From Thermoplasmata archaeon (GTDB taxonomy: Archaea > Thermoplasmatota > Thermoplasmata > Lutacidiplasmatales > UBA184), in the NCBI GenBank assembly GCA_021817605.1, contig JAKAUN010000013.1, forward strand, positions 1 through 64,000: a stretch of 64,000 nt of DNA. Reading direction: 5' to 3'. Of the stretch, positions 16,349-23,113 are shown piece by piece (the stretch's first letter is position 1; every line of letters begins with the position of its first letter). Under the pieces are notes generated by a model. The model ran no database searches. It was not told the origin of the DNA and saw nothing but the letters and a program-made list of their open reading frames with translations. The position numbers were made by a program, and so were the translations under genes.

Positions 16349-18145
16349 TCACATCGTCGGCAGAGCGACGATCCCGAGGAGGTCGAGGGAGTTGGCGAGC
16401 GTCTGCCGGACCGCGGCGACCAGCGCGATGCGGCTCTCGCGCGACGGCCCCGAGGTGAGGACCGGGAGCGCGTGGTAGAACCGGTTGAACCTGTCGGCGA
16501 GATCGTGGGCGTAGCCGGCGAGGGTGTGGACGTGGCCGCTCCGGGCCGCGTAGGCGACCGTCCGCGGCCAGCGCGAGAGGAGGCGGACGAGGGCGAGCTC
16601 CTCCGGGTCGGTGAGGAGCTTCGCATCGAAGGGGTAGGGGGGACTGTCGGCCTCGCCCTTGCGCAGCACGCTCGAGGCGCGCGCGTAGGCATACTGGACG
16701 AACGGCCCGCTGCGGCCTTCAAAGGAGAGGGCGTCCTCCCACCGAAAGCGCACCGGCTTGTCCGGCGCCACGCGCACGATGTGGAACCGCACGGCACCCG
16801 AGGCGACGGCCTCGGCGATCCGGTCGACCTCCTCCGCAGACAGGTCGTCGCGCCGCTTGAGGACCTCGGCGCGAGCTCGCGAGAACGCCTCGTCCAGCAG
16901 GTCGTCCAGCCAGACCGCACTGCCTCCGCGGGTCGACATCCGGCCCCCGCCGGGGGCGTGGATGTCCTGGTAGAACACGTAGCTCGGCCGTCGGCCCTCG
17001 CCGATCTCCGCGAGGAGCGCGTCCAGGGTCCGGGCATGGAGCTGGTGGTCCTGGCCGAGGACGTCCACCACGCGGCCGAAGCGGGAGAACTTCAGAAGAT
17101 GGTAGGCGACGTCGCGGGTCACGTAGAGGCTCACCCCGTTGCCCCGCTGGAAGACGACATGGGTCGAGTCCTTCGGAAGCCCGTAGCTCTCCGCATCGAT
17201 CGCCCAGGCGCCGTTCTCCTCCTGGAGGGCGTGCGGGGCGGCCCGCAGCCGCTCGAGCACCTTCTCGACCGAGCCGTCCTTGAGGAGGTCGGACTCCCAG
17301 ACGAACTCGTCAAAGCGTATCCCGAGGCGCGCGAGGGAGGCGAGCATCGCGTCTAGGATCTCCCCGGCGAGAGCGCGATGCGCCGCGGGAGCCGCGCCGC
17401 TCTCGATAAGGCGGACGAACTCGGCGACCGCCTCCGCGGTCTCCCGATGCTCCTTGAGGTAGGCGCTGAGCGCCGGGTACGGCCGGCCGCGGTAGTGGTC
17501 GACCTTCTCGCCGGGCCGCTCCTGGCCCTCGACGCTGGCTCGGACCGGCTCCGGCCAGGCCTCCCTCGGCTGCTGCCAGAGCCAGGTGACCATCGCCGCC
17601 TGGCGGCCCATGTCGTCCACGTAGTACTGCGTCGTCACCCGGCCGCCGGCCGCCCGCGCCGCGCGGGAAAGCGTGTCGCCGACGATCGCGTTGCGGACGC
17701 GTCCGACGTGGAGAGGGCCGGTCGGGTTCGAGCTCGTATGCTCGATGCAGACCGGTTCGCCTGCGGCCTCGGCGCGTCCGTACTCCCCGCCGCGGCCGAG
17801 GACAAGCGAGAGGATCGTCGCGACCAGTTCCCCGGGGTCAAGGGTGACGTTGACGTAGGCTCCCTCGGCACGAGCCTGGAGCACCGGCTCTCCCGGCGGA
17901 AAGGCAGCGGCGAGACGGGCGGCGAGGGCCTCGGGAGGCTCCTTGGCCGCGGCGGCCAGCCGATGGACCGGCAGGGCGAGGTCCGCGCCCTCGGCGCTCG
18001 AGAACTCGAGCTGCTCGGCGGCGGCGGTCTCTCCGAGCGGGACGCCGACCTCGGCCGCCGCCCGGGCGAGGCGGGAGGCGACCTCGCCTATCCACGCTTC
18101 CCAGGGGTCGACGATGGGTGTCGTCCTCGTGCTCGACGTTCCCAC
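16349..18145 (-). CDS. argS: arginyl-tRNA synthetase
   Basis: Charges tRNA-Arg. The 598-residue class I enzyme has an N-terminal tRNA-recognition (Arg-N) domain, the HIGH variant HVGR at residues 146-149 within SSNPTGPLHVGR, YYVDDMGRQ, VDVLGQDHQLHAR, and a DALR-type anticodon-binding domain at the C-terminus (FNRFYHALPV and ...SLDLLGI). The KMSKS equivalent is weak (GGRMSTRGG), as is usual in many ArgRS. GTG at 18145 is the only start that includes the whole N-domain. Confidence 0.95.
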   Translation of the reverse strand: MGTSSTRTTPIVDPWEAWIGEVASRLARAAAEVGVPLGETAAAEQLEFSSAEGADLALPVHRLAAAAKEPPEALAARLAAAFPPGEPVLQARAEGAYVNVTLDPGELVATILSLVLGRGGEYGRAEAAGEPVCIEHTSSNPTGPLHVGRVRNAIVGDTLSRAARAAGGRVTTQYYVDDMGRQAAMVTWLWQQPREAWPEPVRASVEGQERPGEKVDHYRGRPYPALSAYLKEHRETAEAVAEFVRLIESGAAPAAHRALAGEILDAMLASLARLGIRFDEFVWESDLLKDGSVEKVLERLRAAPHALQEENGAWAIDAESYGLPKDSTHVVFQRGNGVSLYVTRDVAYHLLKFSRFGRVVDVLGQDHQLHARTLDALLAEIGEGRRPSYVFYQDIHAPGGGRMSTRGGSAVWLDDLLDEAFSRARAEVLKRRDDLSAEEVDRIAEAVASGAVRFHIVRVAPDKPVRFRWEDALSFEGRSGPFVQYAYARASSVLRKGEADSPPYPFDAKLLTDPEELALVRLLSRWPRTVAYAARSGHVHTLAGYAHDLADRFNRFYHALPVLTSGPSRESRIALVAAVRQTLANSLDLLGIVALPTM

Positions 18146-18198: not shown

Positions 18199-19098
18199 AT
18201 GACCGCCCTTTTGCTCGTGCGCTACGGCGAACTCGCGCTCAAGTCGCCGCCGGTGCGCCGGGAGTTCGAGGCGACCCTGCGACGCAACCTCGTCGGCCAG
18301 TTCGTCCACGAGGGGCTTTCGCTAAGGTTGCGCTCGGACCGTGGTCACCTCTACGCGGAAGCGGACGACGCCGACGCCGCAGCGCGGCTCGTGCGTCGCG
18401 TCTTCGGCGTGACCTCGCTGAGCGTGGTGCACGAAGTGCCGACCTCCCGCGAGGGGATCCGCGACCGCCTCCTCGAGCTCTCGGACGGAAAGCTCGTCGC
18501 AGGATCCACCTTCGCGGTGCGGGCGCGGCGGACCGGCCAACACCCGTTCACCAGCCAGGAGCTCGCGCGGGACCTCGGTGCCGATCTCCTCGCGCGGTTC
18601 GGGGACCGGGGGCTTCGGGTCGACCTCACCCAGCCTCAGGTCGAGCTCTTCGTCGAAGTGCGCGGACCGAGGACTTACCTCTACTTTGACCGCCAACGGG
18701 GCCCCGGAGGGATCCCGCTCGGCGTGGCGGGCCGGCTGGTCGCCGTGGTCGACGGCCTCCGCGGGGCCCTCGGCGCCTACCTCATGATGAAGCGCGGATG
18801 CCGCGTGACGTTGGTCACCTTGCCCGGGAGCGAGACGCTCGTTAAGGAGGTGCTGCTGCGGTTCGACCCCGAGGCGAAGGTGGAATCCTCCGAAGCCGGG
18901 ACCGGGGCCGTGGAGGCCCTCCTCCGACGGCTGGTCGAGACGACCCGCGCGGATGGGGTCGTGCTTCCGATAGGCGTCGACGAGTTCCCGGCGGCACGCG
19001 AGCGCTGGGGCTCGGTCCTCGTCTTCTCGCCGACCGTGGGCTTTTCCGACGAGGAGGTGGTCAAGGAATGGCAGAGCGTCGCCGCCCTCGCCTCCTAG
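18199..19098 (+). CDS. ThiI-like THUMP protein with degenerate PP-loop
   Basis: A 299-residue relative of ThiI, the enzyme of 4-thiouridine synthesis in tRNA. The N-terminus LLVRYGELALKS, the THUMP domain (about 60-165) and RGPGGIPLGVAGR match ThiI. However, the ATP pyrophosphatase motif SGGxDS, expected at about residues 183-190, reads VVDGLRGA, while the following AYLMMKRGC helix is intact. It is also 90 or more residues shorter than bacterial ThiI and has no rhodanese domain. It could bind tRNA without adenylating it, or serve as partner of another enzyme. A TATA-like element lies about 29 bp upstream. Confidence 0.75.
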   Translation: MTALLLVRYGELALKSPPVRREFEATLRRNLVGQFVHEGLSLRLRSDRGHLYAEADDADAAARLVRRVFGVTSLSVVHEVPTSREGIRDRLLELSDGKLVAGSTFAVRARRTGQHPFTSQELARDLGADLLARFGDRGLRVDLTQPQVELFVEVRGPRTYLYFDRQRGPGGIPLGVAGRLVAVVDGLRGALGAYLMMKRGCRVTLVTLPGSETLVKEVLLRFDPEAKVESSEAGTGAVEALLRRLVETTRADGVVLPIGVDEFPAARERWGSVLVFSPTVGFSDEEVVKEWQSVAALAS

Positions 19099-19295
19099 CC
19101 TTCGACCGGGACCCAGCTCCCGCCACGACCCCCTCCGACGCCCCGGCGGAGGAGGGGTCCGGGGAGCCTGCCTCGGAGGAGGAGCGCGGGTCGGCCGAGC
19201 GGCTCCGGGAGCGTCAGAAGCGCTGGTTCCGCGAGCTCGCCCGCTACGAGTCGCGGAAAGCCCCCCTTACCGAGGAGCCGCCGCGCCAGCCTTAA
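19068..19295 (+). CDS. small acidic/basic hypothetical protein
   Basis: A 75-residue ORF starting with ATG inside the last 31 bp of the ThiI-like gene. It has a disordered Ser/Glu/Pro-rich first half and a charged helix ERLRERQKRWFRELARYES in the second. No family is recognised. Overlap with the upstream gene suggests translational coupling; it ends just before L18a. Moderate doubt remains that it is translated. Confidence 0.4.
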   Translation: MAERRRPRLLAFDRDPAPATTPSDAPAEEGSGEPASEEERGSAERLRERQKRWFRELARYESRKAPLTEEPPRQP

Positions 19296-22498: not shown

Positions 22499-23113
22499 AT
22501 GGCGAGTTCGGCCTACCGCTACATGGCCCGATCGTTCCGGGCGACGCAGGGGGACGAGGGTGCCGGCCTTCGGCACGAGCGTCTCCTCTCCTGGAGGAGG
22601 GACCATAGCGTCACGCGCCTCGAGCACCCGACCCGTCTCGACCGGGCCCGCTCGGTCGGCTTCCGGGCGAAGGGTGGCTACGTGGTCGTACGGGTCCGTG
22701 TCCGTCGCGGCGGCCAGAACAAGCGCGCGATCATCGCGGGACGCCGGCCCAAGCGCAAGGGTATCCTCCGGATGACCCTCGCGAAGAGCCTCCGACGGAT
22801 CGCCGAGGAGCGGGCGCAGAAGCACTACCCGAACCTCGAGGTCCTCAACTCCTACTGGGTGGGAGAGGACGGCAAGCAGAAGTTCTTCGAGGTCATCTTG
22901 GTCGATCCGGTCCATCCGGAGATCCTCGCCGACCCGAAGATCAGCTGGATCGCCGACCCCGTTCACAAGGGGAGGGTCTACCGCGGCCTCACGAGCGCAG
23001 GGAAGGAGGGCCGTGGCCTCCGCTGGAAGGGGAAGGGTGCCGAGCGCTACCGTCCGTCCCGCGCGCGCAACCGCCGGCCCGAGCGACGCACCCAGACCAA
23101 GGTCATCCCGTAG
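22499..23113 (+). CDS. rpl15e: ribosomal protein L15e
   Basis: A 204-residue basic large-subunit protein unique to archaea and eukaryotes. The family blocks are present: SAYRYMARSF at the N-terminus, RLDRARSVGFRAKGGYVVVRVRVRRGG, RPKRKGI, YPNLEVLNSYWVGEDGKQKFFEVILVDP, and a basic C-terminus with GLTSAGKEGRG. Its last 11 bp overlap the convergent TOPRIM gene. Confidence 0.97.
   Translation: MASSAYRYMARSFRATQGDEGAGLRHERLLSWRRDHSVTRLEHPTRLDRARSVGFRAKGGYVVVRVRVRRGGQNKRAIIAGRRPKRKGILRMTLAKSLRRIAEERAQKHYPNLEVLNSYWVGEDGKQKFFEVILVDPVHPEILADPKISWIADPVHKGRVYRGLTSAGKEGRGLRWKGKGAERYRPSRARNRRPERRTQTKVIP

Follow-up and report, generated by a model that had tools for sequence, protein, structure and literature searches.

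The gene at positions 18199-19098 of a window of 64,000 nucleotides from a Thermoplasmata archaeon (Lutacidiplasmatales, UBA184; assembly GCA_021817605.1, contig JAKAUN010000013.1, positions 1 to 64,000) very probably codes for the subunit that binds tRNA in a U8-tRNA sulfurase (TtuI, formerly ThiI) made of two subunits, whichever way these dock. Its product, P0001, joins an N-terminal ferredoxin-like domain (NFLD) and a THUMP domain to a PP-loop domain that has lost the ThiI motif SGGxDS, and a stand-alone catalytic PP-loop protein, P0002, is encoded elsewhere in the same genome. The evidence obtained here comprises the domain make-up, the loss of the motif, the dead domain's homology with the partner and the constraint on it, and the joint presence or absence of the two genes. 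The protein type was already known from PH1313 of Pyrococcus horikoshii; neither the two-subunit reading nor the pairing was found in searches of the open-licence literature.

The open reading frame (ORF) on the forward strand contains 299 codons plus a stop and begins with ATG. The start at 18199 is favoured over a GTG at 18118 because the frames of most genus orthologues extend only a few codons upstream of the equivalent start. The gene and its parts are as follows.

18199..19098, + strand: whole gene, probable THUMP subunit whose ThiI PP-loop domain is dead (ORF and domain profiles; homologues in 36 of 41 genomes, the own genome and 40 relatives)
18211..18423, + strand: NFLD (PF22025, ThiI_fer), residues 5-75 (Pfam, 48.1 bits, E 1.6e-12)
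18472..18690, + strand: THUMP domain (PF02926), residues 92-164 (Pfam, 47.5 bits, E 2.5e-12)
18700..18723, + strand: linker GPGGIPLG, residues 168-175 (alignment with Thermotoga maritima ThiI)
18724..19095, + strand: PP-loop domain, dead and shortened, residues 176-299 (homology with the stand-alone catalytic protein over its residues 1-162)
18751..18765, + strand: PP-loop remnant DGLRG, residues 185-189, which replaces SGGIDS and is one residue shorter (alignment)

Matches within the genus that span most of P0001 show 56-69% identity, and among the best 80 of 556 relatives the homologue of Candidatus Lutacidiplasma silvani is 59% identical to P0001. The original prediction had described a ThiI-like protein without the PP-loop signature, and this description holds: the NFLD and THUMP domains of a one-chain ThiI/TtuI are present and the same-chain SGGxDS is absent, with VDGLRG in its place and KRGC intact. 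In the alignment, the T. maritima SGGIDS positions correspond to Asp185, a one-residue gap, Gly186, Leu187, Arg188, and Gly189. The Pfam model of the ThiI PP-loop domain accordingly matches over positions 1-36 of 197 only (19.1 bits, below its 20.5 cut-off), and TIGR00342, the NCBIfam model for ThiI, gives 125 bits over residues 5-213, short of its cut-off of 264.5. The loss had been taken to be selective for SGGxDS, which did not stand, since the CxxC loop has also lost its first Cys, the active-site DI-loop is incomplete, and the C-terminal part of the domain is missing together with the third Cys.

It had also been suggested that an intact motif at this position in sister genomes would point to a local error. 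Genus orthologues read VDGxRG or a near variant at the site, and none of the 111 fetched loci that carry a P0001-like gene has SGGxDS, in a set that includes loci cut by contig ends, some genomes present twice under two ids, and one locus (L042, genome G039) whose fused ThiI reads SSGIDS and is not a case of loss. A decaying pseudogene or an assembly error would account for the missing motif and for the faster evolution of residues 210-299, whose mean identity is 46% against 68% for the NFLD and 68% for THUMP (60 sequences at least 45% identical to P0001). Such an origin is exceedingly improbable, as the frame is open and the motif loss is common to the phylum sample described below. In five close pairs (identity >0.75, dS <=0.64, out of 30 pairs from a set that lists certain genomes, among them the own one, under two ids), the ratio of nonsynonymous to synonymous substitution rates (dN/dS) was 0.06-0.25 over residues 1-168 and 0.14-0.30 over residues 179-299, and the latter range marks the dead domain as constrained. 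The dead domain is under purifying selection, somewhat weaker than that on the RNA-binding part. The other 25 pairs gave 0.16-0.78 and 0.21-0.86 for the same two parts, never 1, although dS in these more distant pairs seems compressed in this GC-rich DNA. Sequencing error and decay were rejected on the motif loss in genus orthologues, fetched loci, and phylum, together with dN/dS.

The dead domain is also recognizable as a relative of the proposed partner. An hhalign comparison of two profiles, one built from 52 dead domains (those of PH1313 and of 51 split proteins from the phylum sample) and the other from 46 stand-alone catalytic proteins, gave an end-to-end alignment that covers catalytic residues 1-162 of 209 (probability 99, E 3.4e-17); the gaps fall on the first Cys of CxxC and on part of the DI-loop, and the dead domain stops short of the third Cys. 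An AlphaFold2 model of the whole protein, built from 53 sequences, had a mean predicted local distance difference test score (pLDDT) of 94.3 and a predicted template modelling score of 0.89, and its residues 1-296 matched the folds of PH1313 (PDB 1VBK; Z 27.4) and of T. maritima ThiI with ATP (Z 25.0). Profile and model indicate a genuine, shortened PP-loop domain that is predicted to fold well. The view that the gene is not in simple decay is therefore sustained by dN/dS, predicted fold, open frame, and a loss shared across the phylum sample, and tRNA binding without adenylation, also envisaged in the original prediction, finds support in the conserved NFLD and THUMP domains, the confident model, and purifying selection.

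A further ThiI in the genome, for which the original prediction had advised a search, exists as a single stand-alone PP-loop domain. The only PF02568 match in the own genome lies on a different contig (contig 12: 33382-34008) and corresponds to P0002, a protein of 208 amino acids that comprises a PP-loop domain and nothing else; it has SGGIDS at 9, CVLC at 86, the DI-loop GEALGQVASQT at 112, and CC at 168. It scores 177.9 bits with PF02568 (residues 3-193), 184.6 with PRK08349, and 175.2 with TIGR00342, and it also matches the PP-loop domains of two solved ThiI structures. Neither a second ThiI PP-loop domain nor a second P0001-like gene was found in the own genome. These matches bear on the earlier suggestion of a functional swap, in which a different sulfur enzyme, e.g., of the NcsA/TtuA type, replaces the dead PP-loop. 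Weak PP-loop matches of other kinds do occur in these genomes, and three genomes with the THUMP protein (G026, G028, G031) have only such matches, but a swap is very unlikely given a ThiI-family catalytic domain in the own genome and the joint presence or absence of both genes.

The distribution of the two genes was surveyed in 81 Thermoplasmatota genomes at least 90% complete, the own one included, from 23 families. The THUMP profile gave a strong match in 65 of them; 69 passed E 0.001, and the four with weak matches to the THUMP part only (G047, G082, G100, G112) were set aside as other THUMP proteins. Fused ThiI, with THUMP and PF02568 matches overlapping in one frame, accounts for 14 of the 65 and the split form for 51, and the latter is found in 19 of the 23 families. 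Alignment across these archaea, also proposed earlier, separates the forms: none of the 51 split THUMP proteins has SxGxDS, whereas all 14 fused ones and all 46 complete stand-alone proteins, including that of G085, have it (fused G086 as SPGIDS; the G054 stand-alone match, cut by a contig end, was left out of the motif count).

With the 14 fused cases removed, 46 genomes (G054 counted) have both genes, 5 only THUMP (G057, G075, G090, G093, G117), 1 only the catalytic gene (G085), and 15 neither (Fisher P 6.5e-10, which, like the P values below, counts genomes and not independent losses). In the set of 41 genomes, counting strong PF02568 matches only, 32 have both (that of G039 being fused), 4 THUMP only (G017, G026, G028, G031), 4 the catalytic gene only (G009, G020, G024, G034), and 1 neither (G021). 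Among 85 genomes of family f28 at least 80% complete, both genes are present in 28, THUMP alone in 1 (G121), the catalytic gene alone in 1 (G085), and neither in 55 (P 3.6e-20). The same is seen in genus g36 of that family (14 both, 11 neither, 0 singles; P 2.2e-7), and stratification over the three f28 genera that vary gave P 5e-8. QueC, taken as a control gene, was not associated with the THUMP gene across these 85 genomes (P 0.74). This pattern arises from genes that lie apart, on different contigs or at least 94 kb from each other (nearest same-contig pair seen, G001, 94 kb); in the one-contig genome G050 (2.06 Mb) they are near 0.78 and 1.90 Mb. No operon of both halves was found among 141 fetched loci, of which only L042, with its fused ThiI, holds both. 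P0001 might instead bind tRNA alone, as a chaperone or competitor unconnected to thiolation, and the few genomes that carry the THUMP protein yet lack a strong catalytic match would suit this role. We consider it improbable, in view of the near-perfect joint presence or absence of the two genes in the 85 genomes, within genera too, and of a dead domain homologous to that same catalytic protein.

The structure of T. maritima ThiI suggests how a two-subunit sulfurase could work. That enzyme is described as a dimer held together mainly by its PP-loop domains, in which NFLD and THUMP hold the acceptor stem and CCA end of the tRNA and bring U8 to the other chain, so that the THUMP domain of one chain serves the PP-loop domain of the other (PMC4041423). 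Each tRNA therefore requires the THUMP of one chain and the active site of the other, and, by analogy, the split pair would retain just these two parts. An ancestral one-chain homodimeric ThiI would have duplicated and its copies degenerated in complementary ways, the THUMP copy keeping NFLD and THUMP while losing the active site, the other keeping only the active PP-loop domain. In the resulting physical complex, NFLD-THUMP would grip the acceptor stem and CCA end, and the linker and dead PP-loop domain would dock on the catalytic subunit like the second PP-loop domain of the ThiI homodimer, placing U8 at the partner's active site. There, ATP would activate U8 before sulfur transfer, probably via an iron-sulfur (Fe-S) cluster on CxxC plus Cys, to give 4-thiouridine at position 8 (s4U8). 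The stoichiometry would be either 1:1 or 2:2 around a catalytic homodimer.

Confidence in this docking mode is lower than in the two-subunit function itself. A variant of the two-subunit reading, to which we assign a minor though appreciable share of its probability, has both proteins act on the same tRNA with no stable complex, the catalytic protein being a homodimer to which the THUMP subunit just presents the tRNA. P0002 retains the DI-loop GEALGQVASQT, a region placed at the homodimer interface in T. maritima (PMC4041423), as this variant would have it. Docking is favoured by residues 180-209, which hold the former PP-loop and in the 60 sequences have a mean identity of 75%, above the values for NFLD and THUMP, and by the linker, in which glycine occupies the Gly171 position in all 51 split proteins, as it does in all 14 fused ones and PH1313. 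Gly171 aligns to T. maritima Gly168, which is reported to bond with Asp319 of the other chain (PMC4041423). At the Asp319 position, Asp is found in only 8 of 51 dead domains, and P0002 reads LDK.

The CxxC loop and third Cys bind a [3Fe-4S] cluster in Methanococcus maripaludis ThiI (PMC5372739); later work assigned a [4Fe-4S] cluster instead (He et al., 2022, as cited in PMC9957541). CxxC is lacking in 12 of the 46 stand-alone catalytic proteins (G048, G050, G058, G063, G076, G084, G085, G088, G091, G094, G106, G118), which form one group (100/100) nested within the CxxC proteins in the catalytic tree. On this tree, the Fe-S cysteines appear to have been given up once only, while a dead THUMP subunit of the same kind was kept.

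The two genes are not one gene cut in two, because both proteins carry the start of the PP-loop domain; duplication followed by complementary loss is the likely origin. In the THUMP tree, the 51 split proteins form one group at 92/78, under the tool's star (95 and 80), and the rhodanese-length fused ThiI of family f17 is sister to it on a joint branch at 98/96, with PH1313 outside. Taken as correct, this tree implies either a separate origin of the dead domain in PH1313 or the return of a fused gene in f17; the starred branches force two changes of state, contrary to common descent of the dead domains of PH1313 and the split proteins, so that the dead domain may have arisen twice. Such common descent is favoured, against the tree, by the one-residue PP-loop deletion, which PH1313 and 47 of the 51 split proteins have in common and which 14 of 14 fused proteins and T. 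maritima lack; the remaining four split proteins (G046, G053, G057, G062) have insertions at the site. In the catalytic tree, the fused G039 and G086 fall within the stand-alone group, on a long branch.

Several observations weigh against the two-subunit reading or parts of it. Among the THUMP genomes of the phylum sample, 5 of 51 have no strong catalytic match, and 8 of the 41 genomes are unpaired, though just one of these (G026, THUMP only) is at least 90% complete (93%). Genomes of one genus share ancestry, which accounts for part of the f28 pattern, with whole genera lacking both genes. A second control, a THUMP methyltransferase-like gene with no match above the curated cut-off, was weakly associated with the THUMP gene (P 0.025), and genome quality therefore contributes a little. 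The DI-loop, which in ThiI contacts ATP and is located at the interface of the homodimer, survives only in part and unconserved in the dead domain, so that the heteromeric contact would be no exact copy of the homodimer. The T. maritima RNA contacts Lys104, Tyr119, and Arg141 are unconserved in split proteins, fused relatives mostly lacking them as well. Finally, a supported branch parts PH1313 from the split proteins.

Individual families differ in their gene content. Both genes are missing in 55 of 85 f28 genomes and in 6 of the 7 f31 genomes of the phylum sample, and U8 thiolation may have been lost often in these families. Family f20 (G042, G055, G059, G064, G072, G075, G099) has five fused and two split forms, with no strong catalytic match in split G075; besides its fused ThiI, G072 contains a second, partial PF02568 match (contig 72: 11536-11943, a frame of 156 amino acids) that could be contamination. 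In family f21, the THUMP-only matches of G100 and G112 lie in frames of ~150 amino acids in genomes without ThiI genes and perhaps represent another THUMP partner protein.

In relatives of the window, translation genes surround the THUMP gene and nothing indicates the partner. A convergent gene for ribosomal protein eL15 adjoins it in 20 of 47 long loci, including L105, L112, L118, L122, and L131, and in these five the gene centres are <1 kb apart; eL15 in the window is at 22499-23113. A tRNA scan of the window found one tRNA-Gln, which is uninformative. An ORF of 75 amino acids at 19068-19295 (+), read in a different frame, covers the 3' end of the gene; it has no similar sequence in the 47 long loci and is probably not a gene.

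More broadly, complementary degeneration may have turned a homodimeric tRNA enzyme into an obligate asymmetric two-gene enzyme, made of a tRNA-binding and docking pseudo-enzyme and a bare catalytic domain, in a split that spans most sampled families, may have a parallel in Thermococcales or share its origin with that group, and outlived the later loss of CxxC in one catalytic clade; we regard the case for this wider picture as evenly balanced. It would show a route from a homodimeric tRNA enzyme to a heteromer with a dead half. PH1313, whose structure is solved and whose activity has been unconfirmed since 2005, and similar archaeal proteins labelled 'ThiI-like' or 'hypothetical PP-loop' gain a testable joint role. 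In Thermoplasmatota, a THUMP gene or a PP-loop gene by itself can be a misleading sign of s4U synthesis.

Among known systems, PH1313 is the best solved match (profile match to residues 3-298 of its 307, E 3.4e-54). It shares with P0001 the NFLD, THUMP, a shortened PP-loop domain without SGGxDS, the fold, and the one-residue deletion, and differs in its low identity (25-27%) and its place in the THUMP tree. A passage of a 2023 review presents it as a ThiI-like protein with several conserved ThiI residues missing, a smaller PP-loop domain, and unconfirmed activity, and notes that Pyrococcus has several ThiI homologues (PMC9957541). Canonical ThiI/TtuI (T. maritima 4KR6/4KR7 and fused Thermoplasmatota ThiI) has the same NFLD-THUMP-linker order and fold, but is encoded by one gene instead of two, and retains the PP-loop motif, first CxxC Cys, complete DI-loop, and C-terminal part that the THUMP chain described here lacks. 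The stand-alone PP-loop family PRK08349 (NCBIfam NF006222, 'hypothetical protein') has no function assigned in the library, and P0002 falls below its 251-bit cut-off. A degenerate partner is also found in Ncs6/Ncs2 (Ctu1/Ctu2), namely Ncs2, and to our knowledge this pair has no THUMP domain. There, two homologous PP-loop proteins act jointly in one tRNA thiolation (PMC10067955), a likeness to P0001 and P0002 that is limited by the U34 site and the eukaryotic cytosol. Tan1 is not known to carry a dead copy of the enzyme domain. Tan1/THUMPD1 is a THUMP protein that assists a catalytic subunit encoded by another gene, Kre33/NAT10 (PMC9957541), in a reaction that is acetylation and with a catalytic subunit that is unrelated.
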